Below, one piece after another: positions 7,002 through 63,291 of a stretch of DNA of 64,000 nt. The position numbers and the translations under genes are program-made. This stretch comes from Branchiostoma floridae (Eukaryota; Chordata; Leptocardii; Amphioxiformes; Branchiostomatidae), in the NCBI RefSeq assembly GCF_000003815.2, contig NC_049985.1:25240494-25304493 (forward strand), in the 5' to 3' direction. Each line of letters begins with the position of its first letter. Positions within the stretch are counted from its first letter, which is position 1. The notes below the pieces were generated by a model. It searched no databases and had not been told where the DNA came from. It saw nothing but the letters and a program-made list of their open reading frames with translations.

Positions 7002-7831
7002 GTACACTGCCCGAAAACAAGAATTTCTGGCAATTTTTGGTTTCTTATACTACCGTGGAACTTGACATGTCCGGGTCGTATAAACGAATTTCTAGCCACG
7101 GTGTGTCCGGTGCCGAATATCCCCAATCATTGCCGGACATGGCCATGTCTGGTAGTTCGCGGTACACTCACACTGCGTGTCTTGAGAAGTGGTTCAGTGA
7201 ATGGGTAGCGTGTATTCAAGTGATAATTGCTCTCAATGTTTTTTAAAAGAGAATGGTACTGAAAACAGTATAGAAGTATCCATAGAATAAAGAAACGAAG
7301 AACTTCTTTCTCTGTATCTTATTTCCTGCATTAACAAACCTTATGATCCTGATAATTTAACATTTTAACGNNNNNNNNNNNNNNNNNNNNNNNNNNNNNN
7401 NNNNNNNNNNNNNNNNNNNNNNNNNNNNNNNNNNNNNNNNNNNNNNNNNNNNNNNNNNNNNNNNNNNNNNNNNNNNNNNNNNNNNNNNNNNNNNNNNNNN
7501 NNNNNNNNNNNNNNNNNNNNNNNNNNNNNNNNNNNNNNNNNNNNNNNNNNNNNNNNNNNNNNNNNNNNNNNNNNNNNNNNATTTGTAAAACATTGAGGAA
7601 GCTAGCTGAATTGCGAGTTAATTACAATAATTGTGGGTTATCTCCACATACATAAATTAGAACAAACATCGTGAATAAAACTAGGCTATTGAATCTCTGC
7701 ATAAATCTGCATACATGGTATTCCGACAGTTTAGTACACAAAGATATTGTTTGAAAAGAAGCTAGGCTAATACAGACGTACTAATAGTCTCTAACATTGT
7801 ACTAGTAGTCTCTAGGATACACTTTCGGACA

Positions 7832-16984: not shown

Positions 16985-17163
16985 TTATGTCGAGCTTGTG
17001 CCCGCTTGAGGTGCATCAAGCCTTTGAACTTGAACTTGAATCAGTTGACGCTTCTTGCACTCAAAGGTGTACATCTGGTCGGTCACCCTGTCCACTTCCT
17101 GCAGTACCATTTCCGTCCGCTGGAGGGTCTCATCCATATAGTGGTCCGGAAGTGGTGCTTCAT
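16985..17163 (-). CDS. Last coding exon, coiled-coil-like tail and stop
   Basis: A 179-nt exon, phase 1, ending in TAA at 16985-16987. Reads [20 protein letters not shown], then [16 protein letters not shown]. The spacing of hydrophobic residues suggests a short coiled coil, which in polycystin-1 mediates pairing with polycystin-2-type subunits. It joins in phase to the exon at 17510-17657. I did not find a clear AATAAA close downstream. Confidence 0.85.
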
Positions 17164-20100
17164 CTTCAGAAACGGAAAAAAAAGATGTAAGGAGTTTTTA
17201 GTTTATCATTTCCTTATGTGCTGCAAAACACTCCATTTGGGTAGCAGGATAGGTAGGGTAAAGTCCTTTTCTCTATTATAGGGATATTTGAAGCAATCGA
17301 AGCGACATTTGAAAGCAATTGTGATGATATTTGATAGCAATTATGGGGATAGTTAAGCTTCATAGCTATAAACCTACTCGTACCACAAACTGAGTACCTG
17401 CGATCTCTACATGCAGTAAACCACTGTCATTGGAAATTTCTTCTCAGTTGAAAAAATATGAACTGCCGGGAGCTAAAATAATGTCCGACAATGGTAACTC
17501 TGATATTACCGTCAGAGTCTTGGGGCTCGTGACGCATGCCCAAAAGACTCCTGAAGGAGTTCCAGAAGTAATCTCCCATCGTCGTGTCCACGCCGATGTC
17601 TTCAGCCGTCTTACAGTAGCTCAGCCAGTTACACAGCATCCCGACTGCCAGGTTCAGCTATAGGAGAACATAGAAATTAGGCTACATAGTGTTGTTGCAG
17701 AGAAGTTGTTGAAGCTGTAACGTATTAGATGCAAATTTGGGATGGATAGATGGTGATGATGTGTAATACAAGAAAGGCAACACTTTCCAGAAAATGCAGG
17801 ATGTAAAATTCCCTCCCAGTAATTTGCCCTTTGTCAAGCTACTCGCACACCGTTATAAACAATTAGGTTTGCCCCTAAGGCGTCGCGAAAATAAAGAAAA
17901 AATTGTCACATTCACACCCCAAAATGAGTTTTTAACGAAGACACATTTGTATAAGGTGTGAAAACTGTTATCAAAGAAACAAAAGTGTGCTACGAAAGCA
18001 GTTAGAATTCCCCAGTCCACCAGCGCCTACTATAAGCAATGAAAGGAACTGCATGACGGAAGAAGAAGAAGAAGAATAAATAAAAAAGAAAAAAGAAGAA
18101 CACACCAACAAAAACAATATTTTACCTGTCGGAAAACATATCTATATTTGTTTTTAAAATTCTGATTCAAATAAAGTGATTTTTGTCTGACCAGGTAAAA
18201 GACGAAGACCATGACGAACGTAGAATAATACAGAGGTCCCATGACACGATCCACTGCCTTCATATCTTCCGCAAAGACTCCGACGAACGGCCTCCCCAAG
18301 CCCATCTCAAATAGCACGTACGACGTTTTCTTAAGCGGAGAAAGTCTCCATGTTTTTGCCGAAGATTAAGATCCCACTGAAGCCGTAGGCCACTATGATA
18401 ACCAGCATGTACACCGCAAACCCAAAGGCTTCGCTGTATAGCAGCTAGAAGTGTATAAAAAAACACCAACTGCTTATTGTTGGTTTCAATGTTTTGGCTA
18501 AACAGAATGAACAAACTGCCAGGGTGCCCAAACATACACCACTTCTTCATTACATCACATGCTCTCTGCCACAAAAAAAAATCCATAGCACGTTCAGACC
18601 AAAAGATAAAAAAGAAATTGATGTTTTCTGCAGTACCAATACAGGGTCACATCGCAGGGGTCCTAAAATCGACCTCGACCTTTGTCTTCCCAACACTTAC
18701 CCACATACTTAATGTCATTATAATTCATCAAGAGGTACTTGAGTTATAATGACTACAAAAAACGGAACACGAACATACAAACAGACCAAAAACTATATCT
18801 CAACTTTTCATGGAGATAATTAAAATGTTGATATCTTGGAGCGAAATGTACAAGAAGTTCTACGTACGCGAGGCAAAGCGTAGACGGTAGCCACGCCCCT
18901 GGAGAAGTTGAGAACCCGCAGGATGCTGAAGGTACTGATGAAGATGGAGAAGGACATGACCTCCTTGAAGGTAGCGTCCCATTGGCCAGCGGTACTGATG
19001 TCTACAAACTCATTGATACCGAACAGCCCTGTGAACATTCCATATGTGAAAAAGTTACTGTACATATTTCTGGGCACTTCGACAAGCTCTAGACGTCACC
19101 AATAAACAGCTTATGATACCTTTCACATATGCAAAAACGGTTTCTGATTTCCCCCAAATGACAGCATGTAGGTAGGAAGTTTGTCAGCATATACCTTTTG
19201 CTTGTTGTATGTCACGCAGTGCAGCAGCTGCCTGGATGTACCGAAGTGCGAATGTCACAATGACGGCTGTCGACAAGCCAATGTTGCTCAGGATCAAGAT
19301 GTTCCAGAAATTGACGAAGTACGCACGACCACTCTTCCGTATGTTCCAAATCTCACCAAGGACGCTGTAGATGTAGAAAAGGACGAACAAGATGTGGAAA
19401 ATCATCTGGACATAGTCGTCTGCTGTCTGGTACTGGAACAGTCGGAAGGTCTGGATACTGGGCTGGAGTTCAGCAGCGCCCCCTGGGAGGTACTGCAGCC
19501 TGAACACCACGCTGCTGAAAAGCTTCACGTCAGGGTGGTAGAAGTTGGCCCGGAGAATGAGAGTGTCTGAAACCATCAGGATCCAGTCGGTCTGCTTTAG
19601 GAAGTCTATCACTGCAGCAGCCTGATCAGCATCCCGTGCCAGGTCCACCGTGGTCAAGCACGCCGAAGTGCCATTTCTGAAAAAGAAGAAAGAGTTCATT
19701 CAAATACTTGATGATCAAATAAAAGTTGGACTACAAATTTTCATGAATCCAGATCATAGAAAAAAAGATGATATGAATGACGAACAGATCTTCCCTGGAC
19801 AGAGAAACAAGCCACCTATAAACAAAACCATAAGCCATGGAATCATCACTACACGAAAAGTGTGATTTACCAATGATGATAAATACCGGGTAAACGTGGT
19901 AATGGTTGCTTTGGGCAGCGCAAAAAGTCAGTATAGATTTTCTGGATGTATTTGTCGATATTGGTAAATTTTTGTGGAGTGAGCCCTCCATATCTAACTC
20001 CAGTTGCCATTTAAGCTATAACGACATTATTTGCCAGGTAAATGATATAGGTACGTCTGGGATTGGTTGCCCAAACAATAGCGATAAATCCTACATAAGT

Positions 20101-23100
20101 CTCATAATCTTAGTCTCAAGCACCAAATGCCAAAAGCAACCATTACCAAGCATTTATTGTTATTGGTAAATCCCGCTTTTCGTGCAGTGCATTAACATCA
20201 AACAATGCAAACATGTTTTATATACCTGACTTCGTCGACAATACTTGCAGTCCCGTTGTAAGAACAGCTTTCTTCACTCTGTCGGCGAAGAGCTCTTTTG
20301 ATTAGAGTCATCATCAGCGCAGGATAAAGCCTTTGGTCACTGGTTTCGAGGTCTATGTCTATTGGGTCATCTGGAATTGAATGGACAGCCCGATAAGTCT
20401 TCATGTTAGTGCAACAGCCTATGGAACGAGTCTACACATTAAACTGGAAACAGAAAAAAGCTATGGGATCTGCGATAATTTCTCACCTGGATACTCGGTG
20501 GTTCTCTCCAGGCGAACAGAACCGATCCGGAATGCGTTTGTTCCAGCAGGAAACTGTTTGTCCAGCCACCTCAGCTTCTGCCCGCTGTACCCACGCTCTG
20601 GGTGGAGGGACGGCATCAGTTCCGACGACAGCCACTTCCAAGCATCGTCTGCTGTGGCGACCTGAAGGTGGGAAATTAATTCTTGTATCTTACTTAGACC
20701 TACGTCACATTTCCTAGCCGGGGTCCGGCCGGGCGGAACACGAAAAATTAAATTTTACGCCAATAAATATGCACAAGGCAAGCTGTTGAATTATTTTCGG
20801 AACTTTCTGTTTTCTTGTTGTCTTTTATATCATACTTTGTGGTGGATCAAACAATACTGGTTGTACTAGTTATACAATACTGATGTGTTCTGCGAACCAA
20901 CCAACCAACCAATCAACCAACCAACCAACCAACCAACCAACCAACCAACCAAGATAGAGTAAAAAGAACGACATAGGGCGGTGATTTTTTAAAGCATGTG
21001 TACAACATGCTTATAGACGGATTGCTGTTTGAATAGTCAGGTCGAGAAAGGCAGTTTTTCAAACAGTACCTCCTCATATCCAGATAGTAGCGTGTTCTCC
21101 AGTGAGGTCCTGACATGGTAGGCGTGTCTATCGAAGCCCAGAATCCCGATGTAAAAGGCATTTCCAGTGAAGACGAGGAGAAACATCAGGAGCACCAGGA
21201 TGCTTCTGCCTTTTGTCATCTTCTCGACCCAGTTCGGGTCATGGTCGGTTTTCTTCGGGGCTGGCGGCAAAACTCTCCGAGCGGGAACTGAATCAGAAGT
21301 ACAGACCATCAATGACGTTAGCTTAATATGCAAAGACATCTCAATTTACAGCCTTGCTCAAAGCAACAGTGTTCATGATGGTATTGTAGCTAATTGTTAA
21401 TACCACCAGCAAACAATTTTTTCGTTTTGGGTTGTAAGAAATGATGTAATAATCCATGCTTACTTTGTGAATTGAAACAAAGCAGAGACATTTACTGACT
21501 GGCCACTACGGTCGGGACAGTCTGTCGTAGCCTTGCATATCAAATTTCTAGAGACGTACCTTCATAATCCCTGCTTCTCTTCTGAATAACACCAATTGGA
21601 GGTCGCCCTGTGCCAGAAAGGTTCGTCCCCAAAAGTCCCCGAACACAAGCGGTCACAGACCAGACTATAGGTCCGATGATGACTGCCTTTGTGTAAGCGA
21701 TCAGAAAAATCTGCAAAATGCGTACAGGAGTTAAGTCACAAGCGTTTTCGTAGATTGCCTGAACACGAGATTGCTAAAGCTGATCTTCCAAACGTTATCC
21801 AACGCACTTCTTGTAGTAACTTGTATTTATACAGTCCTGCTGACCCCGTGTATATGTCACAGTGGAGATTACGATCCAGTAGAATCGCCGATTCTCCTAG
21901 GAGAAACTCCGATCCTATCTCAAATGATGCTAAGATGTAGGAAACAGTTGTAATTTTTTATAATAATTTAAGAATTAATGCAAACCTACTAACTATTACC
22001 AACTACCACACTTGAGCCACTTCTGCAACTTAACTCAATGTACACTATAGTACATAGCATCACCATCATTCATGGTAAATTTCATGTACGTTTTCTGATA
22101 AAGTAATTTCTGAATAGGTAATGGCAAAAATCTTATAATTTGTGAAAGACACCAAAAGGTGATCAAACAATGTGTCAGTGATCAAATTTCACGGCTTTGG
22201 AAGAACAACAACTGTAAAGTCGTCAAACAGATGTCAAAAGATCAAGCAGAGTTTCAAGATATTAATCACAATTTCACACCTATTCAGTACATTTCACTAG
22301 TCAGACTTGTACTGAATCATTTCACAGACGAACAATAAGCATTGTTAAGTGATCAACAGGTTTTTAAGATACAGTTGCAGAAGTGAGTCTAGTGTGGTAG
22401 TCTTCGGTGAAGTTAACATTGTAGAAGTGACACACGTAGGCTTGAGTGTAGTTGGTAATGAGTTAGTAGGTTTGCATTAATACTAAATAAAATCATTGTT
22501 AAAAAAATATTTGAGTTTGGATCGGAGTTTTTTCCTAGGAGATATCCCGATCGCAATCTGTCCTAGTAGATCGCCGATTGTCCTAGGACAGATCCCAATT
22601 GCAGTCTGTTTCCTACATCTTAGCATCATTTGAGTTTGGATCGGAGTTTCTCCTAGGAGAGATCCCGATCATGATCTGTACTAGTAGAATCGCCGATTGT
22701 GCTAGTACAGATTGCGATCGAGATCTCTCCTAGGAGAAACTCCAATCGCAATCTCTCCTAGGAGAATCGACGATTCTACTGGATCGTGATCTCTACTGTG
22801 ACATATATATGGGTAGCACATACATGGTGTCTGTATGTGGGTCTCGTATTATATTGGTTTGGGGTATTTCTCTCCCAAATGTGGCATACCACGTGTGCAC
22901 TGCAAAGCGCATCGAATAGGGAAGTAAATGTGCAGCACTAGCAGCAACGCAGAAGAGGTCAAATTTTACTGATCTAATGGAATACTAGTAATCAGCTCAG
23001 AGAGGTTGAATCTGCAAAACAGTGCCAGTATGACAAAGGTTGTGAGAGTTACATATCGTGAAAGTGACATCTCAGTTAACCATGCAGAATGCATGACTTA

Positions 23101-56100: not shown

Positions 56101-59100
56101 CTGCTAAACTGGGAGAAGAAGATAGAAAGATTGAAAAATACACTACAAGTATGGAGATGCAGAAATCTAACCCTCTATGGAAAAATCACTATCGTCCTTA
56201 GCACTGTCTCAGATAACACATAGCATGGCAATGATTGTTACACCACCCTGGGTTATTACAGCTGTGAAAAAGGAAATCTTCAACTTTTTATGGAAAGATA
56301 AAAAAGACAGAATCAAAAGAGATGTGATAAGCCAGCCCATTGAATTGGGAGGACTAAGTATGTTAAACCTAGATTACCAGAAAAATGCACTTCTATCACG
56401 TTGGATCTATAGGCTAACATCAGAAGACAATTGTAGATGGAAAGCATTACCCCTTCTGTACCTCAGTTCTTTTGGCCCTAATAACCTTATATTAGGCATG
56501 AACTTTAAAACTGAAAGTGATGGCCCAAACCTAAACAATATTCCCACTTTTTATAAACAAGTCATACTATCCTATCACAAAGCTGATAAAGTAGATGACA
56601 TGAAACCCCTTAACCTTAGAGACCAGATAATATGGTGCGATGAAAATTCGAGATCCCAGGGTAAAACTCTCTTCTTTCCCCAGTGGATTAAAGAAGGAAT
56701 CATCTATGTGAAAGACTTATTCACTGACGGATTCCTCTCGACAGATAACCATCCAACGCTTTGTCATAGACCCAGTACTTTAATTGAACGCATTAGTCTG
56801 TATCAAGCTATACCCAGCACCTGGAAAGATTCTATTAAATGTGCTATAGACTCAGTTAACCGCCCAATACATCTTGTTATCCCAACCCCACATCTGCTTG
56901 AACAAAGAACAAAAATGAAAATCAAGACAAAATCCTGCAAATCACTTTATACTTCTCTCGTTCAGAAACATGCAGTAGTTCCAAGCTGCCAACAGAAATG
57001 GCAGACACTTTTTGATTTAGACTGTCTTAATTGGAAGAAGATTTGGAAAATGCTAGGTACAACTTCATGTAAAGAAACACAAATAGCAGAACTTAATTAC
57101 AAACTACTTCATCAAATTTTACCATGTAGTGAGAAACTAAACAAATGGAAAATACAAGATGAAGTTGGTCAAGTAATTAATCCTATATGTATATTATGTG
57201 ACAGTGGACATGTTGTCAATTATAAACATATGTTTCTGGAATGTAAAAGGCTAACTGACCTGTGGAACTTAGTACATACTAATGTACCCTATAGCCCTAG
57301 TAACCCTTATATTGATTTTGAAGAGATTATACTAGGAAAGGTAAACCAGCCAATAAATGAAAATAATCTGAAGAGAAGAATACAAATAATATCTATAGCA
57401 AAGTGGATTATCTTTAAAACATGAATCTTTTCTATGAAGCTACCACAGCCCATTTCAGGTCATAACTTATCTAACATTTTCAACTTGGAAATCAAAAACA
57501 AACTGCATGATCCGTAATGTGTTTTTAGCTCTTAAAATGCTCTTACTCTTAAAAAACTGTTTAGCCCATAGTAGATATAAGATAGGTCAAGTCCAGTCTA
57601 CTATGTTATAACATAATGTGAACCACCCTATACTCTACATGGAAATCATGTAGAGTATAGTAGTAATGCATAATAGTCCGTATATGTACATGAGAGAAAG
57701 GCTTGTATGTGCGAAGATTTTTTCCCTGTGCAATACCTATTGTACTTTTTACCACCACCTGTGCAATAGCTGTACTTGGTAGATATACTTGTTTCAACTT
57801 CCCTGTGCTGACCAAATGTACTCTTACCCATGTGATAGGAGACACATGTATCACAACCTAGTCGGTTGATCGGGTTTACTGATCGATGCTATGCTACACT
57901 CAATTGTGTAACAGCAAATGCAAATGTAACAGTACTGTGGTGGACTACCCTGTACTCTCTGCATAATTGCTGTGTATCAATATGTGTTGTTGCCATGGGT
58001 ACGGATATCTACTTTATTACATATGTATACTTAGTATTAGCCACTTATGTTCAAAACAAGCGGCCAGGGGGCCCAAACTTACACTGCTTACTCCCTGCCC
58101 AAAGACCTATCCACTAGCCAAAAATCCTGAACCTACCACTTCAGGATAACTTGAACGCCAACTTCGTCGCTACGCTGCAGTACCGCAACTTGTCGCCAGG
58201 ATGTCCATAATCAAACTTGACCTTCGTTTTCCAAACCCCTAAATAACTACCAAATATCATGCAAATCAATCCAAAGCGTCAAAAGTTATCTTGTCCGCAA
58301 ATACACACACGCACACATTCAAGTCGCTGCACTCACGACAGAAAGTGCCAGGAGTACCGTTTTCGTAGAAAACCTTGGTATACGCAACCCTACTCAAATA
58401 CCAAATATCGCGACATGCCATCCATAGCTGCTCGAGTTATACGAGGTTGACCTACATATTGGGACACAAGAACATTTTCTAACCAAAATATAACCTTCTT
58501 GGCGAAGGTAAAAAGGCTAAATAAAAAATTCACTTAAGGATATTAGAAACGTTTACCAACATTTGGTCTAGCTTAAAACCTACTTGTGTTACAGCCCAGA
58601 ATCTCCACCCTCATGGCGATGTGACCATGCCAGGACTGGACCACGAAACGCACATAACGAGCATCAACTGGGTTGTCCAGTTGGTTCTTAACAAGGCTGG
58701 TGCTGTCAACGTTACCTGGAAAAACCTGAAAGGTAGACAAATGACTTAGATGATGGTATTTTTGCTTTCCTGTGTAGTATGGATTTATTCATGAGCCCTA
58801 GATCTTCGTCACTACAATGATCAAATAAACTCTGTATATCTCTCCGAGGCCAACAATTTTGAAAGGGTCGATCAAACCAATGGATGAAGACTACTCCAAA
58901 ATAAAGGTTCAAGATAGATGTTTATAATGTAACTCCGCAGTGTTTCATTGAATTAAAGAATAACAAGAGTATGAAAACTCAAACCTGCATGAAACATTTT
59001 GTTTTGTGATGGTGCGTATTGGGTGTTGTTGGGTTGATATGGTTTGACGTTTGGCAAAATTATTCCATCATTGTTCTTATATATCTTCCTAGGAGAAATG

Positions 59101-62100
59101 GTGAGATCCAAAACTACACCATTTAGTCATCTCATAAATTTCATTTTTATTTCCTATTGTTACACCTGCACCTGGCACATATCCCAACGTGTATATAATG
59201 GTTCATTCCCAACAGAGGTGACAGGGATGGTCACAGTTGCTCTTTCTGCTAGTTGTGGATCTGTGCAGCCATCGGGTTCACCTTTTACATTTTCTGCTGG
59301 AACATATCGCTAAAGTGTATATAGTGATTCACCCCGCACACCGTTGTGACAGGGGTGGCGCGAGCTAATTGACCTCAGCTGGCTTGCTCTAGTATTCAGT
59401 TACCAGATTAATCAGGACTACTCCTGTCAAAAAGGGGTGAAAATATCTGAACGAACCACAAAACTGCAGCAAAACTACAAATGCGCGCTTAAGCACAATG
59501 GCCACAACATCTACCTCCATAGCAAACGTGATCGTAATCCATCCAGAGGTTCTAAAGATATCGGTCGGGAAACACAAACTCCAAAACATTATTCTTACCA
59601 AAAACAGTGCATTTTTTTCATGCATTTAAAAGGATATCTTGATATTTAACATACTACTTCTGAGTTAGTGTTGTCGTTGTATGTTGTCCAACTAATCAAA
59701 TCATCCGTGCTGTACTGGAGTTTGTATGACGTCACCCACTGGTTGGTATAACCAAGGAGGTTATAATTAAGCCGACCCTGAATGACGGTACCCATGACGT
59801 GGATTATTTCCCGTAAATCCACCTGAAAATCAATATTTGTTCCCTTTAAATAATGTGGTATATGAAACAAAACTAGAACGACAGGATTTAACCATCTCGA
59901 TTTAAGATAAGCGGTATGCTGAAATTAGAAATATAAATAGATAATGGTGTACAGAAAATGAAATAAAAATATTTTCAACAAGGTCGTCATATGAAAGACA
60001 CGATTGTTTAGTCTATTAACATTTATGCTAGCCGCGTGGGCCCGTCGCGTTACCTTCGCCGAGGCCGTGTCAGGCATTTTAGCGTGACCGTGTCGGGGTC
60101 GTTTAAGACATCACGAAATCACCTGCGAGATATCATTATTAGTATGCTTACCTGCAACCACTGGCCGATTGTGTTGACCTTGGCTGCCCAGCCGCCTCCA
60201 CTAGTAATCCCGTTTAACCGGCCGAGGAAAGGCGCGAGACCAGGTTCAAAGGCCGAGGATGCAGTAATGCTGTAATCAGGTATGGCGCCAGATGCCATCC
60301 CAAGTGGTTGGGGACAGGCAGGGAGGTTGACTGCAGCTGAAGGAACAAGAAGATGAAAACATTGACAACTAGAGTTCCACGACCTCATACCTTCGACAAG
60401 TGGTTTTAATCTTTTCGAGTGAAGTATTTGTAAATCTTTCCATACGATTATGCAAATAAGGTCCTGATTTGCATTTATGTTTTTTGATCATCCTTTCTAT
60501 CAAAGAGGCACAAGTTTAAAGTATTAAACTCCTATTGTAGCAGGGAAGGCCTTTTGAGTGTCTCCTTATGACTTATGTAAATATGAAAATAATTTACATG
60601 ACTTATGTCTAATAATATACACCTTCACTAAGCTCCATCATGTTGTAAGTATGAAATTCTTATCATTTACCTCTATGGTATTCTAGTATTTCCTAATCAC
60701 TTATGCAAATGAGGTCGTAATTTGGATAATCGACATCTATCTACATTTCTCCTTTTCTCAGTTACTTGTGTGACAGATTTTAAAAGTCCTATTGTGGAAT
60801 GCTATACATTCATAAACTCTCATTATCAATTATGCAAGTTAGCTGTTAATTTGTATGGATAGCTTGTTATTATGTAAGTCATCACTTAGGCTATCTACAT
60901 ACCAAAAATCATGACGACCCGTCAACACGTTCTCGAGTTATTCTCGTCCAAAGTTTGAAAGGAAATCAGCGCCTGCAGTTCTAGGGGTCGCAAAATTACA
61001 TCACTTACTCCCCTCCAAAGAGCTATCTACCGCTCAAATATCACGACCACAGCATCTCAAGAACTAGATATTTAAAAACAGCAAGTGCCGCTGCAGAACC
61101 ATAACAAATTGCTAGGGGACCGAAAATCTAATCGTTTTCAGGTCTCATCAAGGCCTTTCCACATACCAAATATCGATACAATCCATTCAAGCGTTCTCGA
61201 GTTTTGCTGGTCGCAAGTGTCTGGAGCGAGCTGCTATTCGGCGCTACTCAGGTGACCTCAATGAGACTGTCGCAACTGTCTGGAGCGAGCTGTCATTCGG
61301 CACCACTAATGTGACCTCAATACGACAGTAATTGCCCCAGGTGCGGCCATTGGACACCGGGAAGGACCCCTACTCCTTTCGATAAGCATGGTGGGATTTT
61401 TGACGTGCTCGAGGATTGGCTCTCTTAAAACACGGGGCCTCCATTAAACGTCTTATCCGAGGGACGGCCCTAACCGAAGCTAGGTACAAAACCGAAGCTA
61501 GCTATAGGTGTAACCATCAAACGAAGGTGAGGGTTTATCAAGAAAACAAAACTATTGGCAGAAACAGCAATGTCCCCATTTACAATACTCGTAACTACAC
61601 TCGCAGGTTGGCAAGGATTATGACTCAGATTAAGAGCACGACGATGCGGTGATGCTGCCATTCCAAATGAATGTGCACAGGATAGAAGTAGGACTTTAAA
61701 ACTCACCCGATGGACCCCAACGTTAAAACCATTGGCTGAGAGAGACTTTTCCATAACTATAACTGTCTATAGTTTTTCTTCTGCATTAGACAAGCAAAAT
61801 TTAATAATAACCACCCTTACACACTGTTTTCTCAGTCAAACGGCTGCGAACATTTAGGCTTATTCTATTTACTTGACATCTTTTATAGCTGCGCATCTAA
61901 TGACTTTCCTTGAGCTATTCTATCTGTTCTTACAAGGCAACGAAAAGAGGAAAAGGTGCATCGTGATATGTGATAAAAGATGACGTGCCGTTCTGGTATC
62001 ATCATTACGGCTGTCTTTAATTTTTTCCAATGATTATGGAAAAGACTAAATTAAAAATTCACTTTAAGATATTAGAAATGTTTACCAACATCTGGTCTAG

Positions 62101-63291
62101 GTTGAAACTTACTTGTGTTACAGCCCAGAATCTCCACCCTCATGGCGATGTGATCATACCATGACTGGACCACGAAACGCACATAACGAGCATCAACTGG
62201 GTTGTCCAGTTGGTTCTTAACAAGGCTGGTGCTGTCAACGTTACCTGGAAAAACCTGAAAGGTAGACAAATGACTTAGATGAGGGTATTTTTGCTTCCCT
62301 GTGTAGTATGGATTTATTCATGAGCCCTAGAGCTTCGTCACTACAATGATCGGATAAACTCCGTATATCTCTCCGAGACCAACAATTTTTATAGCGTCGA
62401 TCAAAACCAATGCATCAAGACTACTCCGAACTAAACGTTCAGAATCGATGTTTTTAATGTGTCTCCACATTATTTCATTGAATTCTGGAATAAAAAAAGA
62501 TATCTTGATATCTAACATACTACTTCTGAGTCAGTGTTGTTGGTGAAGGTTGTCCAACTAATCAAATCCGTGCTGTACTGGAGTTTGTATGACGTCACCC
62601 ACTCTTTGGAAGAACCAAACCGACCCTGAATGATGGTACCCATGACAGGCATTATTTTCCCTAAGTCCACCTGAAAGGCAATATTTGTTCCTCTTTAATA
62701 ATGTAGCATATATATGGAGCAAAACGAGAACGACAAGATTGAACCATCTCGACAGAAGTTAACCAGTATGCTGAAATTAGGACATATTGATAGATAATGT
62801 TGAACAGAAAATGAAATAAAAATGTTTTCAACAAGGACTTAATATGAAAGACACGATTGTTAAGTCGATTAATATTTATGCTAGCCGCGTGGGCCCGTCC
62901 CGTTACCTTCGCCGAAGCCGTGTCAGGCATTTTACCGTGACCGTGTCGGGGTCGTTTAAGACATCACGAATTCACCTGCGAGGTCTGCAAGGCACACGGA
63001 CCCAAGTCAAATTCACAGATACCGTGCTATATATCATTATCATTATGCCCACCTGCAACCACTGTCCCATTGTTTGTATCCATGCTGCCCAGCCGCCTCC
63101 ACCAGTATTCCCGTTTAACCGGCCGAAGTAAGGCGCGAGACCGGGGTCATGGACCGAGGATGCAGTAATGCTGTAATCAGGAATGGCGCCAGATTCCATC
63201 CCAAGTGGTTGTAAACAGTCTACAGTGTTGTTGTCATCAGGTGTGGGACCAGATTCCATCCCAAGTGGACAGTCTAGGGTGACTGGGTCAG
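16985..63291 (-). CDS. Polycystin-1-like protein with seven discoidin domains (5' partial, 50 exons, two frame breaks)
   Basis: Polycystin-1 proteins are large receptor-like membrane proteins that usually act with polycystin-2-type channels, often at cilia. The class is shown by a GPS followed by one TM, a PLAT domain, and then the polycystin block with its extracellular TOP domain. Exons were chosen by homology and by matching splice phase. From N to C: D1, D2, D3, CCP1, D4, CCP2, D5, D6, D7, Methyltransf_FA-like, CCP3, three cbEGF, mucin-like linker, GAIN-like, GPS, PLAT, 11 predicted TMs, tail. The first visible exon begins in phase 1, so a signal-peptide exon should lie beyond base 64000. 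Frame is broken in the D5 C exon (40066-40202) and in the TM10/11 exon (18192-18444). The gene is therefore either a recently damaged copy or has assembly errors; the rest is well preserved. Family assignment is firm; orthology to a named PKD1L gene is not. Confidence 0.9.
17510..17657 (-). CDS. End of TM11 and cytosolic tail
   Basis: A 148-nt exon, phase 0-1, reading [20 protein letters not shown] and [17 protein letters not shown]. Joining it to the previous exon at CTG|GTCAGA gives [13 protein letters not shown], a continuous final helix. Acceptor CTCCTATAG, donor G|GTAATA. Confidence 0.88.
18192..18444 (-). pseudogene. TM10-TM11 exon with a +1 frame break before the pore region
   Basis: The exon opens [20 protein letters not shown] (TM10) and continues [14 protein letters not shown], where a TAA stop follows at about 18332-18334. 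One base further, another frame continues the family sequence: [18 protein letters not shown], then [18 protein letters not shown] (TM11). The exon is 253 nt; an intact copy should be a multiple of three to suit both neighbours, so one base is extra or two are missing. No plausible micro-intron explains it. If real, the protein loses its last helix and tail. Confidence 0.85.
18868..19028 (-). CDS. TM9 exon
   Basis: A 161-nt exon, phase 1-0. Reads [20 protein letters not shown], then [19 protein letters not shown]. The FVDIS..W motif and the LRVLNFSR helix end match the fourth helix of the polycystin core. Donor CGC|GTACGT is strong. Confidence 0.9.
19195..19676 (-). CDS. Polycystin TOP domain end, TM7 and TM8
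   Basis: A 482-nt exon, phase 2-1. It contains [40 protein letters not shown] and [13 protein letters not shown], the canonical order of TOP domain motifs (W-I, the L-x-x-x-F-x-x-Y-N/H-P-x-V-x-L-F strand). TM7 follows ([19 protein letters not shown]) and TM8 ([19 protein letters not shown]). Confidence 0.93.
19847..20189. mobile_element. CACTA-like MITE (343 bp) in a polycystin intron
   Basis: Left end CACTACACGAAAAGTGTGAT; right end in reverse complement CACTGCACGAAAAGCGGGAT. The inverted repeats continue for about 65 bases (both contain GATTTACCAAT and GGTAATGGTTGC). Target duplication CAT at 19844-19846 and 20190-20192. It has the same ends as the three large elements and so is probably mobilised by the same transposase. 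It lies in the intron between exons 20226-20370 and 19195-19676. Confidence 0.8.
20226..20661 (-). CDS. Polycystin (TOP) extracellular domain, first two exons
   Basis: Exons 20661-20487 ([37 protein letters not shown]) and 20370-20226 ([35 protein letters not shown]). Phases 0-1 and 1-2 connect exactly. The FxxxxWL..L.P and the 'IGSVRLR' type motifs belong to the polycystin TOP domain between the first and second helices of the channel-like core. Confidence 0.88.
20893..20951. repeat. (CCAA)n microsatellite
   Basis: About 14 repeats of CCAA, one with a T for C, in the intron between exons 21070-21287 and 20487-20661. Confidence 0.95.
21070..21287 (-). CDS. TM6 exon
   Basis: A 218-nt exon, phase 1-0. 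Reads [17 protein letters not shown], then the hydrophobic [20 protein letters not shown], then [19 protein letters not shown]. The TM followed by an amphipathic start of the extracellular loop matches the first membrane helix of the TRP-like core shared by polycystin-1 and -2. Confidence 0.88.
21560..21710 (-). CDS. End of TM5 and following cytosolic loop
   Basis: A 151-nt exon, phase 0-1, reading [19 protein letters not shown], then [15 protein letters not shown]. It completes the hydrophobic segment started in the previous exon and continues as a basic loop. Donor G|GTACGT is strong. Confidence 0.88.
21851..22808. mobile_element. Foldback element in a polycystin intron, rich in TCTCCTAGGAGA palindromes
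   Basis: The ends are TATATGTCACAGTGGAGAT and, in reverse complement, TATATGTCACAGTAGAGAT. The arms extend inwards over most of the element: GATGCTAAGATGTAGGAAAC on the left pairs with a complement near 22607-22626, and GCAAACCTACTAACTATTAC pairs with a complement near 22455-22475. The right arm repeats a unit with CTCCTAGGAG and ATCGCCGATT several times. It fills most of the intron between exons 23108-23654 and 21560-21710. Confidence 0.65.
23108..23654 (-). CDS. Transmembrane segments 2-5 of the polycystin
   Basis: A 547-nt exon, phase 2-0. It starts with the loop containing [17 protein letters not shown], a close match to the polycystin-1 R-x-Q-R-L-x-C-C-L signature at TM2. Further hydrophobic segments: [38 protein letters not shown] and [20 protein letters not shown]. 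The segment before TM4 is proline-rich. The last one continues into the next exon. Confidence 0.92.
23860..25084 (-). CDS. PLAT domain, three exons
   Basis: Exons 25084-24824, 24476-24316 and 23949-23860. The PLAT (LH2) fold sits in the first cytosolic loop of polycystin-1 and binds lipids or partner proteins. Visible motifs: [46 protein letters not shown], then [16 protein letters not shown]. For the second exon only the donor at 24315 (GTGGGT) gives the right phase for the next exon. The better-looking GTAAAG three bases further on would break the frame. Confidence 0.88.
25301..25546 (-). CDS. GPS second half and transmembrane segment 1
   Basis: A 246-nt exon, phase 0-0. It reads [18 protein letters not shown], then [14 protein letters not shown] and the hydrophobic [19 protein letters not shown]. 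The CxC of the GPS is present and a Thr follows, but the usual His-Leu before the cleavage site is replaced by Asp-Met with one residue fewer. Cleavage may be weak or absent. The hydrophobic stretch is TM1, as expected between GPS and PLAT in polycystin-1. Confidence 0.85.
26267..26436 (-). CDS. GPS, first half
   Basis: A 170-nt exon, phase 1-0. It ends [18 protein letters not shown], giving the first two GPS cysteines and the conserved tryptophan. The upstream part is proline-rich ([12 protein letters not shown]). The donor is CAG|GTTTTA, not a strong site. The second half of the GPS is in the next exon. Confidence 0.85.
26801..27359 (-). CDS. GAIN-like beta region before the GPS
   Basis: A 559-nt exon, phase 0-1. 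It starts [20 protein letters not shown] and contains [42 protein letters not shown] and [10 protein letters not shown]. These match the order of motifs ahead of the GPS in polycystin-1-like proteins (a NPF-type start, the PTE..YD motif and a final W-x-V-G-V-K). The domain supports self-cleavage at the GPS in this family. Confidence 0.85.
27552..28785 (-). CDS. GAIN-like N-terminal region, three exons
   Basis: Exons 28785-28698 ([20 protein letters not shown]), 28137-27941 ([17 protein letters not shown], ending GKERLKSR) and 27776-27552 ([20 protein letters not shown], then [11 protein letters not shown]). Phases 0-1, 1-0, 0-0 connect correctly to both sides. The sequence is predicted helical and lies where polycystins and adhesion GPCRs have the helical half of the GAIN domain. 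Donor of the first exon (G|GTTCGC) is weak. Confidence 0.75.
28928..30017 (-). CDS. Mucin-like Ser/Thr/Pro linker, two exons
   Basis: Exons 30017-29820 (phase 1-1) and 29091-28928 (phase 1-0). The first is rich in Thr and Ser ([20 protein letters not shown], later TTAKTTTRF). The second starts with an acidic stretch (SDYMDDEV) and continues [17 protein letters not shown]. Low-complexity Ser/Thr/Pro segments like this are usually heavily O-glycosylated stalks. It separates the adhesive modules from the GAIN-like region. Confidence 0.85.
29235..29685. repeat. R1 repeat copies in the linker intron
   Basis: Two ends ATAACCTTCTTGGCGAAGGT (29316) and ATAATCTTCTTGGCGAAGGT (29656), with CATTATGCAAATGAGGTCCT between them. 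Located between the two mucin-like linker exons. Confidence 0.55.
30338..30460 (-). CDS. Calcium-binding EGF domain 3
   Basis: Phase 1-1 exon of 123 nt. Starts [18 protein letters not shown] and ends [16 protein letters not shown], with six cysteines. Donor G|GTAAGT is consensus. Directly precedes the mucin-like linker. Confidence 0.92.
30664..30786 (-). CDS. Calcium-binding EGF domain 2
   Basis: Phase 1-1 exon of 123 nt with six cysteines. Reads [20 protein letters not shown], then [15 protein letters not shown] and ends HNC. It has no ATG, so it is easily missed by ORF searches. Splice sites: acceptor GGTCCACAG, donor G|GTAGGG. Confidence 0.9.
31270..31392 (-). CDS. Calcium-binding EGF domain 1
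   Basis: Phase 1-1 exon of 123 nt. It starts DMDEC and has six cysteines: [20 protein letters not shown], then [16 protein letters not shown]. The D-x-D-E-C start plus an aromatic residue before the fourth cysteine region is the calcium-binding EGF signature. First of three tandem EGF exons of equal length. Confidence 0.92.
31562..31759 (-). CDS. Sushi/CCP domain 3
   Basis: Phase 1-1 exon of 198 nt with acceptor CTCTTCAG. Reads [38 protein letters not shown] and [13 protein letters not shown]. It links the Methyltransf_FA-type domain to the EGF repeats. Near-identical motifs in CCP1 and CCP2 point to copying of the same exon to different places in the ectodomain. Confidence 0.88.
31820..32327 (+). 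mobile_element. tRNA-derived SINE with 12-bp target duplication
   Basis: The head has RNA polymerase III box motifs: A box TGGCACGATCGGGAG and B box GGTTCAAATCC, with a loop CTTAGGC that would place a TAG (Leu) anticodon. The body follows with TGCCCTTGGGAAAGGCACTT, a type of motif common in animal SINE bodies. It is bracketed by the direct repeat AGTCCAAAATTG (31808-31819 and 32328-32339). The insertion is in the intron between the second Methyltransf_FA-like exon and CCP3, antisense to the gene. Confidence 0.85.
32526..34082 (-). CDS. Methyltransf_FA-type (farnesoic acid O-methyltransferase-like) domain, two exons
   Basis: Exons 34082-33822 and 32717-32526, both phase 1-1. The first reads [20 protein letters not shown], then [10 protein letters not shown] and [11 protein letters not shown]; the second reads [16 protein letters not shown], then [20 protein letters not shown]. 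This pattern matches the Methyltransf_FA family, a non-enzymatic-looking beta-sandwich found in many invertebrate extracellular proteins despite its name. I recognise the family from the W-I-x-W-x-x-G and GxVGYGT features; no catalytic function is implied. Confidence in the coding call is higher than in the family name. Confidence 0.75.
32760..33775. repeat. R1 repeat, long copy
   Basis: From GAGTTCCACGACCTGATAC through TATGCAAATTAGG, CTATCTACATGC, CCACTAGGGGGCCCAAACTT and TTCCGCTGCAGAAC to GCTGTTGACCTACATACAGA. It fills the intron between the two Methyltransf_FA-like exons. Confidence 0.6.
34440..34518. repeat. Nested inverted repeat (cruciform-like) in the D7-Methyltransf_FA intron
   Basis: Outer arms CTGATATTTAAGC and GCTTAAATATCAG; inner arms CTTATATGCAC and GTGCATATAAG around AAGA. 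Size suits a tiny MITE remnant. Confidence 0.5.
34703..36034 (-). CDS. Discoidin module D7 (exons A, B, C)
   Basis: Last F5/8 type C domain, next to the Methyltransf_FA-type domain. Exon A 36034-35850 ([24 protein letters not shown]), exon B 35224-35078 ([33 protein letters not shown]), exon C 34844-34703 ([25 protein letters not shown]). Lengths 185, 147 and 142 nt. Confidence 0.87.
36445..39709 (-). CDS. Discoidin module D6 (exons A, B, C)
   Basis: Sixth F5/8 type C domain. Exon A 39709-39528 ([24 protein letters not shown]), exon B 38069-37920 ([34 protein letters not shown]), exon C 36586-36445 ([25 protein letters not shown]). All splice phases are canonical for the module. The A-B intron carries a perfect RFX X-box palindrome, and the B-C intron a diverged tandem repeat at 37165-37635. 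Confidence 0.87.
37165..37635. repeat. Four diverged tandem units in the D6 B-C intron
   Basis: Units share CAGGGACAG, TTTTCATGAAGGGGGATTAT and, in two of them, CCATACACACAGA. They start near 37172, 37225, 37440 and 37568. No coding signal. Confidence 0.5.
38258..38271. promoter_or_regulatory. Perfect palindromic RFX X-box in the D6 A-B intron
   Basis: GTTGCCATGGCAAC again, between exon A (39528-39709) and exon B (37920-38069) of D6. RFX factors drive ciliary genes and polycystins commonly act in cilia, so an enhancer role is conceivable. The site may equally be a leftover of a repeat like the foldback element. Confidence 0.4.
38400..39300. repeat. R1 repeat, long copy
   Basis: Several ATTATGCAAATTAG-type motifs (38792, 39082) with the associated ATCTACATATC and GTTGACCCATTC blocks. 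In the D6 A-B intron. Confidence 0.55.
40066..41977 (-). pseudogene. Discoidin module D5 (exons A, B, C), C exon frameshifted
   Basis: Exon A 41977-41811 ([25 protein letters not shown]) and exon B 40951-40805 ([32 protein letters not shown]) are open and in phase. Exon C, 40202-40066, is 137 nt; all six sister C exons are 142 nt. The missing 5 nt lie just after the VT codons, where sisters read GTCACGAACCTACTGGAC or close to it. Downstream the correct residues ([17 protein letters not shown]) continue in another frame, and a stop follows soon in the splice-phased frame. The final conserved Cys is also lost: sisters read GC, here GYYT. I infer that this domain no longer folds; skipping the whole module would restore frame because it is phase 1-1. 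Confidence 0.85.
41540..41777 (-). mobile_element. tRNA-derived SINE copy (Met-like head)
   Basis: On the minus strand the head starts GGTTGTGTGGCGCAATCGGC and has an anticodon-like loop TTCATAA (CAT) and a B box GGTTCGAATCC. The T stem pairs poorly, so it is not a working tRNA. The body continues with GTACGCATACCTAGCTTCGG and GACGTTAGATGGAGGTCCCG, seen again at 61345-61490. Sits in the D5 A-B intron, ending 34 bases from exon A. Confidence 0.7.
43034..43228 (-). CDS. Sushi/CCP domain 2
   Basis: Phase 1-1 exon of 195 nt. It reads [20 protein letters not shown], then [19 protein letters not shown] and [12 protein letters not shown]. The acceptor follows CTCTTTAG. The donor context is AAT|GTATGA, whereas the other CCP exons end AAG|GTATG. 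Very similar to CCP1 and CCP3, so the three are recent copies of one another. Confidence 0.88.
43623..46748 (-). CDS. Discoidin module D4 (exons A, B, C)
   Basis: Fourth F5/8 type C domain. Exon A 46748-46579 ([26 protein letters not shown]), exon B 44932-44786 ([33 protein letters not shown]), exon C 43764-43623 ([22 protein letters not shown]). D4-D7 form a second subfamily with PDGSITASS in exon A. The A-B intron contains the 46300-46458 foldback element and a decayed retroelement relic. Confidence 0.87.
46300..46458. mobile_element. Near-perfect foldback MITE flanked by TTAA
   Basis: Two arms of about 77 bp pair almost completely around a loop of a few bases near GAGCTT. Ends are TGACCCGCC on the left and its complement on the right, with TTAA on both sides (296-299 and 459-462 of the 46-kb block). 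TTAA targets suggest the piggyBac type, but the family is not proven. Lies in the D4 A-B intron. Confidence 0.7.
47122..47304 (-). CDS. Sushi/CCP domain 1
   Basis: Single phase 1-1 exon for a sushi (complement control protein) module, an extracellular adhesion or recognition fold. It reads [30 protein letters not shown], then [11 protein letters not shown], giving the CCP cysteines, G-W-x-x-P-x-x-C end, and two extra cysteines shared with CCP2 and CCP3. The acceptor used by CCP2 and CCP3, just before the GFPG residues, has lost its AG here. The next AG, 9 nt inside at 47305-47306, keeps the same phase and would remove those residues. Confidence 0.85.
47440..48145. repeat. R1 repeat copy
   Basis: Contains GCTGCTAGGTGGCCCAAACC, TTGCAGTACCAAAACC and TGCTGTTGACCTACATACAA, ending ACATAATCTTCTTGGCGAT. 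Lies in the CCP1-D3 intron and abuts the A-exon relic. Confidence 0.6.
48150..48215 (-). pseudogene. Relic of a discoidin A exon after D3
   Basis: On the plus strand, GCGGTGATGTTGCCATTCCA continues ACTGGATGTGCACAGGAT. Working A exons read in the same orientation GCAGTGATGCTGCCATC, then the MESGAIP codons, then GATGTGGACAGGAT. The middle, including MESGAIPD, is deleted. The following ~400 bases match 61690-62060. Confidence 0.6.
48627..49638 (-). CDS. Discoidin module D3 (exons A, B, C)
   Basis: Third F5/8 type C domain. Exon A 49638-49454 ([23 protein letters not shown]), exon B 49097-48948 ([29 protein letters not shown]), exon C 48768-48627 ([24 protein letters not shown]). Lengths 185, 150 and 142 nt, all in the consensus phases. 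It is separated from D2 by a 9-kb intron enlarged by two transposons, and is followed in the transcript by CCP1. Confidence 0.88.
49288..49390. repeat. GC-rich intron element, D3 A-B intron
   Basis: Copy of the 62880-63020 element, with GCTAGCCGCGTGGGCCCGTT and CCGAGGCCGTGTCAGG. Slightly more diverged. Confidence 0.7.
49685..49850. repeat. GC-rich intron element, second copy near D3
   Basis: Reads AGCTAGCCACACGTGCCCGT and CCGAGGCCGCGTCAGGCAT, and ends GACCCAAGCCAAATTCACAG like the D1 copy. Lies upstream of the D3 A exon in the transcript, 37 bases from CACTA copy 2. Confidence 0.65.
51523..51906 (+). other. Unrecognised ORF kept open in CACTA copy 2 (partner of 1958-2260)
   Basis: A 127-codon frame with the same peptide as its partner over about 100 codons, here ending at TAG shortly after SSRNDNCIT. 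In copy 1 the stop is absent and the frame runs into an inverted repeat. The N-terminal 20 or so residues are Cys- and Val-rich. No known domain was recognised. Confidence 0.25.
51908..52206. repeat. Inverted-repeat unit inside CACTA copy 2
   Basis: Counterpart of 2275-2712, without a gap. Arms pair CTCCCTTGCAGTCTTCGGAAC with GTTCCAAAAACTGCAAGGGAG, and an inner arm TTGACTATGTTCTTTTGTTT pairs imperfectly with its complement near 52155-52170. It may be a nested MITE or a subterminal hairpin of the CACTA element itself. Confidence 0.6.
54092..54517 (+). pseudogene. LINE endonuclease domain fragment
   Basis: Reads [31 protein letters not shown] and LMNIYAPN, matching the AP-endonuclease family start (N-V-R/N-G-L), the catalytic Glu of the Q-E-T motif and the Y-A-P-N strand. 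The frame is lost just after VSNWFKLS. The GDMNCV.NP..DKKGG segment of the same domain continues in another frame at about 54535-54590. Confidence 0.85.
54978..55259 (+). pseudogene. LINE connector between endonuclease and reverse transcriptase
   Basis: Lysine- and glutamate-rich; ends [20 protein letters not shown], the conserved W-x-x-x-G-E-K-x-x-K-Y-F-L-x-L-E motif before the RT of L1/Tx1 elements. A stop follows, with the frame recovering as [11 protein letters not shown] further on. Confidence 0.8.
55455..55695 (-). mobile_element. Small insertion with hammerhead-like core inside the LINE
   Basis: This stretch replaces the RT fingers of the LINE. On the minus strand it reads CTGAAGA, an extra A, a perfect 6-bp stem (GAGTGA/TCACTC) and then GAAACGTCC at 55530-55568. 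CTGANGA, stem II and GAAA are the conserved parts of hammerhead ribozymes, which are known in Penelope-like retroelements. One unpaired extra base and no obvious stem I make self-cleavage doubtful. Confidence 0.4.
55699..57424 (+). pseudogene. LINE reverse transcriptase palm fragment and C-terminal region
   Basis: First piece, 55699-56031: [16 protein letters not shown], then [13 protein letters not shown] with the catalytic ADD box. Second piece, 56177-57424 (415 codons, open): [17 protein letters not shown], and near the end [19 protein letters not shown], a Cys/His motif typical of L1-type LINE C-termini. A stop and a frameshift separate the two pieces. Confidence 0.85.
57628..57660. repeat. 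Perfect 14-bp hairpin at the 3' side of the LINE
   Basis: CTATACTCTACATG pairs perfectly with its complement across a GAAAT loop. It lies just past the last coding piece of the LINE, close to a further copy of the AACCACCCTA motif. Confidence 0.6.
58020..58510. repeat. R1 repeat copy
   Basis: Contains CGGCCAGGGGGCCCAAACTT, GCTACGCTGCAGTACCGC and GGTTGACCTACATATTG, ending ATATAACCTTCTTGGCGAAGG next to the D2 C exon. Confidence 0.6.
58584..60336 (-). CDS. Discoidin module D2 (exons A, B, C)
   Basis: Second F5/8 type C domain. Exon A 60336-60152 ([19 protein letters not shown]), exon B 59822-59655 ([28 protein letters not shown]), exon C 58725-58584 ([24 protein letters not shown]). Exon B is 168 nt rather than 147-150 because of in-frame additions, mainly a 15-nt palindromic insertion that adds residues around NLLGY in a loop after the QGR motif. 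Closest sisters are D1 and D3, which share PDYSITASS in exon A and a B-C intron start reading GTATGT. Confidence 0.87.
59747..59765. repeat. Palindromic insertion inside D2 exon B
   Basis: TATAACCAAGGAGGTTATA is a palindrome around AAGGA. Compared with D3 exon B, TAACCAAGGAGGTTA (15 nt) is inserted between two TA dinucleotides, adding five codons without breaking frame. Confidence 0.6.
60028..60122. repeat. GC-rich intron element, D2 A-B intron
   Basis: Copy of the element described at 62880-63020; contains CTAGCCGCGTGGGCCCGT and CCGAGGCCGTGTCAGGCAT. CpG-rich against an AT-rich intron background. Confidence 0.7.
60365..61220. repeat. R1 repeat, long copy
   Basis: Begins AGAGTTCCACGACCTCATAC, as at 32760, then repeated TTATGCAAAT motifs, GGCTATCTACATACC and GTGCCGCTGCAGAACCATA. 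In the D2-D1 intron. Confidence 0.6.
61345..61490 (-). mobile_element. SINE body fragment, same family as 41540-41777
   Basis: Shares GGGAAGGACCCC, CACGGGGCCTCCATTAAACG and CCCTAACCGAAGCTAGGTA (plus-strand reading) with the 41.6-kb copy, but lacks the tRNA-like head. Lies in the D2-D1 intron. Confidence 0.6.
61640..61695 (-). pseudogene. Relic of a discoidin A exon after D1
   Basis: Plus-strand reading ACGACGATGCGGTGATGCTG, CCATTCCAAATGAATGTGCA, CAGGATAG. It shows the same internal deletion as the relic at 48150-48215. The homologous flank up to 62060 and the adjoining D1 C exon show that both relics descend from one duplicated segment. Confidence 0.6.
62113..63291 (-). CDS. Discoidin module D1 (exons A, B, C)
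   Basis: F5/8 type C domain, a beta-sandwich that typically binds carbohydrate or phospholipid at the cell surface. Exon A 63291-63053, exon B 62670-62521, exon C 62254-62113. A reads [13 protein letters not shown] and ends GQWLQ; B reads VMGTIIQGR then [13 protein letters not shown] reads [15 protein letters not shown] and ends ILGCNT. Phases are 1-0, 0-0 and 0-1. Exon A is 239 nt where its sisters are 167-185 nt, because an 18-codon stretch carrying Cys and PLGMESG is repeated in tandem. The acceptor at 63292 has a weak pyrimidine tract, so its start is less certain than the rest. Confidence 0.85.
62880..63020. repeat. GC-rich intron element, D1 A-B intron
   Basis: Contains CTAGCCGCGTGGGCCCGT, TTCGCCGAAGCCGTGTCAGG and GTGTCGGGGTCGTTTAAGAC. 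Very similar copies sit in the A-B introns of D2 (60028-60122) and D3 (49288-49390), plus one before the D3 A exon (49685-49850). Confidence 0.7.

Follow-up and report, generated by a model that had tools for sequence, protein, structure and literature searches.

A divergent polycystin-1-type gene with a predicted discoidin-rich ectodomain in Branchiostoma floridae

Introduction

Polycystin-1 proteins sense something extracellular, and their ligands are poorly known. PKD1L3 (mouse/human) is described as having 11 putative transmembrane (TM) segments, a GPS and a PLAT domain, with the REJ domain absent (PMC1934368). In its reported 1:3 assembly with PKD2L1, the filter is asymmetric and carries Lys2069 of PKD1L3 (PMC8357825). 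The outer parts named for the PKD1 family in the former account are CTLD, SUEL, WSC, REJ and PKD modules (PMC1934368). The GPS is not universal in the family, being reported for zebrafish Pkd1l1, unlike its mammalian counterparts (PMC5318412). A pkd1l2 gene has been named in B. floridae (PMC10199209). Among the matches listed for the open-licence literature, no title or abstract dealt with a polycystin carrying discoidin modules or with an expansion of polycystins in lancelets.

Here, we analyse a gene in a stretch of 64 000 nucleotides of B. floridae DNA, referred to as the window. With a probability of about 0.62, we propose that this is one gene for a receptor of ~3200 residues, in which a shuffled ectodomain would be carried by a polycystin-1-type core that joins PKD2-type partners.

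Materials and methods

The genome searched comprised 513 Mb in 431 contigs, with the window at C7:25240494-25304493. Gene modelling started from codon statistics of the clear module exons and from splice-site weights; the splice-site matrices held vertebrate-like values. The first automatic model was dropped: it scattered tiny exons as far as 120 kb and failed to include several of the membrane exons. A second automatic model with a conservation bonus still missed exons and was also dropped. The membrane exons of the final model were placed by conservation in three paralogues. Pfam families were scored on the spliced translation. Because the frame of the window copy is broken in the channel region, PKD_channel and Polycystin_dom were scored on a protein carrying the matched part of the neighbouring paralogue at that place. 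Counts of F5/8C start exons in the genome are lower bounds, with 150 of 292 candidates scored and 149 rows used.

Results and discussion

Gene model and outer modules

The minus-strand model has 50 exons within the window (63273-16985), bordered by AG and GT throughout, and its reading frame stays open for 3019 residues before breaking in exon 48 (Table 1). A preliminary description of this DNA had reported seven F5/8C modules, three CCP modules, a Methyltransf_FA-type (FA) domain, three cbEGF modules and a mucin-like linker, joined in phase. All of these are present on the minus strand in the spliced model, the open frame and the phase-1 module ends agree with the joining, and the Pfam scan of the spliced protein recovers the outer modules plus PLAT above their cut-offs. 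F5_F8_type_C gave 672 bits in seven stretches, the best of which spans 127 of 127 profile positions. Sushi matched in 2 + 1 stretches (three in all), Methyltransf_FA at 43.9 bits (cut-off 24.2) and EGF_CA in three stretches. When the stop-free exon peptides were used in tblastn, none of the 185 matches in the window fell outside the modelled exons, and the number of discoidin modules was therefore set at seven. No RNA family reached its gathering score.

Each discoidin module is built from three exons with outer phase 1. Phase 1 also marks both ends of every sushi, FA and EGF module, as well as of the first linker exon; phase-1 borders at both module ends are a classic signature of exon shuffling. 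Discoidin module 7 lies nearest, among solved structures, to the neuropilins, factors V/VIII and lactadherin (E = 1.6e-43 for neuropilin-1, summed over its two domains). It is thus an ordinary F5/8C domain of the kind found in neuropilin-1/2, the factor V/VIII C domains and lactadherin, proteins which differ from the lancelet gene product in that their F5/8C domains are not joined to a channel. Neither PKD repeats nor a REJ domain gave a Pfam match at E = 1 or better in the spliced protein, and the stalk matched no Pfam family at that level.

Two further features were noted in this part of the window. A partial second discoidin start (PLGMESG) lies immediately ahead of module 1 at 63273-63180, and a similar stretch is present in the neighbouring paralogue. 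Non-LTR retrotransposon-like remains (54089-57421, plus strand; Exo_endo_phos 30.1 bits, RVT_1 28.3 bits against a cut-off of 29.6) sit antisense to the gene in the long intron that separates discoidin module 2 from module 3.

Table 1 Exons and predicted features of the gene in window coordinates, in protein order
Feature	Span	Exons	Strand	Basis
F5/8C module 1	62113..63273	63273-63053, 62670-62524, 62254-62113	-	Spliced model, Pfam; signal-peptide exon splices onto first exon
F5/8C module 2	58584..60336	60336-60152, 59822-59658, 58725-58584	-	Spliced model, Pfam
F5/8C module 3	48627..49638	49638-49454, 49097-48951, 48768-48627	-	Spliced model, Pfam
CCP/sushi module 1	47122..47304 (5' border +/- ~12 bases)		-	Spliced model, Pfam Sushi
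F5/8C module 4	43623..46748	46748-46579, 44932-44786, 43764-43623	-	Spliced model, Pfam
CCP/sushi module 2	43034..43228		-	Spliced model, Pfam
F5/8C module 5	40066..41977	41977-41811, 40951-40805, 40192-40066	-	Spliced model, Pfam
F5/8C module 6	36445..39703	39703-39528, 38069-37920, 36586-36445	-	Spliced model, Pfam
F5/8C module 7	34703..36028	36028-35850, 35224-35078, 34844-34703	-	Spliced model, Pfam
Methyltransf_FA-type domain, two exons	32526..34082	34082-33822, 32717-32526	-	Pfam 43.9 bits; AG/GT borders kept in neighbour
CCP/sushi module 3	31562..31759		-	Sushi 23.7 bits (cut-off 20.7); spliced model
Three cbEGF-type modules, one exon each	30338..31392	31392-31270, 30786-30664, 30460-30338	-	EGF_CA, spliced model
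Thr/Ser/Pro-rich mucin-like linker, two exons	28928..30017	30017-29820, 29091-28928	-	Borders kept in neighbour and C8 copy
Stalk in GAIN position, four exons	26801..28785	28785-28698, 28137-27941, 27776-27552, 27359-26801	-	Spliced model
Degenerate GPS-like motif and TM1	25301..26436	26436-26267, start of 25546-25301	-	GPS 12.8 bits; TM1 by paralogue hydropathy
PLAT/LH2	23860..25084	25084-24824, 24476-24316, 23949-23860	-	Pfam 54 bits; paralogue profile versus polycystin-1
TM2-TM5	21560..23654	23654-23108, 21710-21560	-	TM2 and TM3 aligned to polycystin-1; TM3-TM5 by paralogue hydropathy
S1, TOP/polycystin domain, S2-S3	19195..21287	21287-21070, 20661-20487, 20370-20226, 19676-19195	-	Polycystin_dom, polycystin alignments
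S4, S5, pore loop	18192..19028	19028-18868, 18444-18192	-	PKD_channel, scored on neighbouring paralogue's letters
S6 end and cytoplasmic tail to stop	16985..17657	17657-17510, 17163-16985	-	Out of frame in window copy

The membrane core

The membrane part had been described as a complete GPS-TM-PLAT-TOP unit. PLAT/LH2 is found after TM1 at 54 bits (cut-off 23), and this part of the description stands; the GPS lies below its cut-off, only the last third of TOP is matched and the frame is lost before the pore. The GPS scored 12.8 bits, below its cut-off of 22.5 (E = 0.18). It retains part of the Cys/Trp pattern and lacks the His of the cleavage motif, which we take to be His followed by Thr. In the copy on contig C8, the Thr after the missing His is replaced by Ala.

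On the neighbouring paralogue's letters, PKD_channel scored 105.8 bits (cut-off 22.4) and Polycystin_dom 34.4 bits (cut-off 23.6), the latter match being confined to positions 129-198 of 199. When the two intact paralogues were combined into a profile, it matched polycystin-1 across PLAT-TM3 (E = 3.4e-22) and polycystin-2 across TOP-S6 (E = 2e-24). Searched as a single sequence, the window letters matched polycystin-1 in four segments that are colinear, although one is negligible. Hydropathy windows of the paralogue were grouped into ten of the 11 expected TM segments. One extra window before TM1 was left uncounted, and TM2 was not flagged and was placed by the polycystin-1 alignment. A total of 11 TM segments is likely. 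With regard to a C-terminal coiled coil, a heptad-like run was noted by eye in the last exon.

Judged by the three features given for PKD1L3 (PMC1934368), PLAT is found, 11 TM segments are likely and the GPS scores below its cut-off; we therefore class the gene as a variant of PKD1 type that diverges from the standard members. The earlier reading as a polycystin-1-family receptor with a discoidin-rich ectodomain is upheld, most likely as one gene; the completeness of the GPS and of the membrane part is not.

Comparison with described polycystins

Like PKD1L3 as published, the gene is of PKD1 type, without REJ, with PLAT, a conventional pore loop and a basic filter residue (PMC1934368, PMC8357825). 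The likeness is to the published description, as the PKD1L3 chain was absent among the polycystin chain matches. The ectodomains differ: that of PKD1L3 has a C-type lectin domain, whereas the lancelet gene has F5/8C, sushi, FA and EGF modules.

Alignment to polycystin-1 (PKD1) runs in order through PLAT-TM2-TM3 and on into later TM segments. Unlike PKD1, the lancelet protein has no Pfam match to PKD repeats, REJ or LRR, and its GPS is below the cut-off. PKD1 is also described as lacking the PH1-filter-PH2 segment (PMC8357825), whereas the lancelet pore loop aligns through with polycystin-2.

The ten sea urchin SpREJ genes likewise represent a PKD1-type set in an invertebrate deuterostome (PMC1934368). 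They differ in being grouped by REJ, GPS and PLAT, some with CTLD, PKD, WSC or SUEL. In the text of that paper, the words 'discoidin' and 'kringle' do not occur (PMC1934368).

A family of close paralogues

The gene had been presented as a single oddity; it instead belongs to a set of at least 17 close paralogues with a varying outer part. The genome-wide search with the TOP exon gave 97 matches, of which 17 have 71-100% identity and the next at most 38%. The gap in identity is sharp. The matches represent a large polycystin expansion.

The neighbouring paralogue lies tail-to-tail with the window gene on the plus strand, at window coordinates of about -81700 to -6929, and the longer colinear DNA blocks are 82-98% identical. 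AG/GT borders are kept in 27 of its 27 exons from FA to stop, and its frame is open to the stop. The C8 copy is intact in 21 of 21 exons from linker to stop, and in the 20 kb read upstream the order of the window gene recurs, with five F5/8C modules, FA, a single sushi module and three EGF modules. The copy on contig C3 at 13.54 Mb (C3:13536001-13550000), an 80% paralogue, has frame breaks in two of 21 exons, both of them membrane exons; 20 of its 21 mapped 5' borders are AG, one exon being without AG.

F5/8C start exons were found upstream of at least ten of the 17 TOP copies, the nearest at 12.7-21.4 kb. Among the 149 rows, they precede all nine TOP copies at 88% identity or more and at least one of the eight at 71-80%; 83 of these rows were assigned to a TOP copy, and many such exons lie elsewhere. 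Upstream of the TOP copy at C3:12.35 Mb, the stretch C3:12364001-12384000 contains sushi-EGF units and four FA domains with no F5/8C match. Similarly, C6:13115001-13125000, upstream of the copy at C6:13.13 Mb, contains sushi-EGF units and one FA domain with no F5/8C match.

Ectodomain turnover and selection

Seven discoidin modules in the window gene compare with eight start exons or nine cassettes in the neighbour, the nine being taken from an automatic model in which some cassettes are only partly recognised. Sushi modules number three in the window gene and two in the neighbour (automatic model). Cassette pairs inside the window gene have dN/dS values of 0.29-1.01. The module counts and cassette pairs reveal tandem turnover. 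The outer modules would gain copies through exon shuffling in phase 1 and through tandem duplication, which would leave the paralogues alike in the core and different outside.

For linker plus core, with the S5-pore exon excluded, dN/dS is 0.397 for the window/neighbour pair (1502 codons) and 0.327 for neighbour/C8 (1489 codons). These values place the core of the paralogue family under purifying selection. Regional window/neighbour values range from 0.10 to 1.04 and are based on few changes; the stalk plus first GPS exon gives 0.26 for neighbour/C8. Discoidin pairs between window gene and neighbour have a dN/dS of 0.52 over 788 codons, with single values of 0.28-0.87. Neither the window/neighbour pairs nor the window-gene cassettes show diversifying selection on the discoidin modules, a trace that a recognition role might leave, and this speaks against the receptor proposed here.

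Close paralogues that combine one core with very different outer parts constitute a natural experiment, in which the needs of the core are kept and the target of the sensor part varies. The subfamily also bears on the need for GPS self-cleavage in polycystins, its core being under selection and its GPS decayed.

State of the window copy

The S5-pore exon of the window copy has a 2-bp deletion near 18337 relative to all three paralogues aligned (neighbour, C8 and C3). It breaks the frame before the pore, so that the window model runs into a stop once 3019 residues have been read, and no rescue was found for this break. The third exon of discoidin module 5 carries a 5-bp deletion relative to the neighbour and is in frame only through a downstream cryptic acceptor. 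The window copy is probably truncated before the pore, as a pseudogene, a null allele or an assembly error.

That the window copy is a pseudogene, with only the neighbour and the other paralogues functional, has a little less than an even chance and is compatible with the receptor proposed here. Both deletions favour it, as does the tail exon, with a window/neighbour dN/dS of 1.04 over 55 codons only. It is opposed by the frame, which stays open in all other exons before the S5-pore break, and by the linker-plus-core value for the same pair, which reflects few changes and is partly ancestral. The 2-bp deletion lies within a short C/T run and may be an assembly error, or it could be a null allele of one animal. 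Three runs of N (2548-2647, 4538-4685 and 7371-7580; 458 bases) are present in the window, all downstream of the gene.

Proposed working mode

The predicted protein would begin with a signal peptide, followed by seven F5/8C modules with two sushi modules interspersed, an FA-sushi-EGFx3 unit and a mucin-like spacer. After the spacer would come a stalk with a relic GPS and the polycystin-1-type core (TM1, PLAT, TM2-5, S1, TOP and S2-S6). We infer a receptor without self-cleavage at the GPS. Candidate ligands of its outer modules are lipid head groups, glycans or proteins carried by another cell, the matrix or a microbe. The core would join PKD2-type partners, as PKD1L3 joins PKD2L1 in a 1:3 ratio, and ligand binding or a pull on the outer part would gate the PKD2-type partner channel. 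With its basic residue at the pore filter, the protein is most likely a PKD1L3-like accessory subunit that would couple an adhesive ectodomain to a PKD2-type channel.

Alternatively, the protein could itself be a cation channel rather than a modulatory subunit. The alignment of the paralogue with polycystin-2 runs through S5, the pore loop and S6, and the paralogue's S6, inspected by eye, has no basic residue before its end, as might suit such a channel. However, the LGD filter motif of polycystin-2 is aligned with LGR in the paralogue, an arginine taking the place of the filter aspartate, and PKD1L3, with a lysine at the filter, is described in a 1:3 complex with PKD2L1 (PMC8357825). We consider a channel of its own improbable.

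A broader reading takes in the whole set of at least 17 loci. Duplication of one polycystin core, combined with shuffled outer cassettes such as F5/8C arrays and FA-sushi-EGF repeats, may have given the lancelet a repertoire of channel-coupled recognition receptors sensing gametes, microbes or matrix, a suggestion that we regard as tentative.

One gene or two

The FA exon gave 75 matches in the genome, 31 of them at 70 bits or more. Every one of these 31 lies within 100 kb upstream of a close TOP copy on the same strand, compared with two of the 44 weaker matches. At least one strong FA exon accompanies 16 of the 17 TOP copies, the exception being C3:3927463. Four of the 31 lie 58-87 kb from the TOP copy and may belong to other genes. 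Since all strong FA matches accompany TOP copies, at least ten of which have discoidin exons upstream, the discoidin and membrane exons probably belong to one gene. The TOP copy without a strong FA exon and the seven without a listed F5/8C exon speak against this reading. The shared module order is weaker than independent evidence because the paralogues arose by duplication, and two adjacent genes always duplicated together would give a like picture.

Such a pair, in which a secreted discoidin-FA-sushi-EGF protein and an independent polycystin would always be inherited side by side, is nevertheless very unlikely. In its favour, the kringle exons described below show that module-rich neighbours occur. 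Against a pair, exon phases agree across the junction from EGF3 through linker to stalk, and the AG/GT borders of the junction are kept in the neighbour and the C8 copy (5' AG in 20 of 21 exons of the C3 copy). Moreover, the introns from EGF3 to stalk measure at most 0.73 kb, which leaves little space for a promoter and a first exon, and the co-location of strong FA matches with TOP copies has no exception (31/31).

Gene start

The preliminary description had placed the gene at 16985..63291. The 50 exons do lie there; the first exon lies outside the window. The first exon of discoidin module 1 requires a phase-1 donor upstream, and a signal-peptide exon was found 3.2 kb beyond the window at 67188-67116 (minus strand); its ATG lies at 67188, and the donor at 67116 is in phase 1 and scores 6.8. 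Spliced to discoidin module 1, this exon reads through in frame, and a 400-base stretch around it has 94% identity to the neighbouring paralogue. Counterparts lie upstream of discoidin exons in all three further loci (C8 plus, C3 plus and C8 minus strand), with 64, 72 and 68% identity over 25 residues, respectively. Within each of the two C8 stretches the counterpart is followed by a discoidin start exon; at the C3 locus the first listed discoidin start is about 8.7 kb past the counterpart, outside the stretch read. Upstream of the signal-peptide exon, zinc-finger-like frames at window coordinates 69265-68400 were noted by eye and are kept in the paralogue.

Four kringle exons lie further upstream on the minus strand (window coordinates 78786-74677), and four precede the neighbouring paralogue at -99932 to -93085 (plus strand). 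The single kringle exon scanned scored 79.8 bits with Pfam Kringle. Because the signal-peptide exon intervenes, is kept in the neighbour and has counterparts in three of three loci, the kringle exons are most likely part of a separate neighbour gene. An ectodomain beginning with these kringles would suit their strand, their equivalent place in the neighbouring paralogue and their Pfam score, but it is very unlikely, given the conserved signal-peptide exon with its phase-1 donor between them and the first discoidin exon, and given that none of the 150 kringle matches scored, out of 456 candidates, lies at C8:19.6 Mb or C3:3.5-3.9 Mb. Discoidin and kringle matches also occur together at C11:19.585-19.644 Mb (minus strand) with no close TOP copy, perhaps as a channel-free kringle-discoidin gene.
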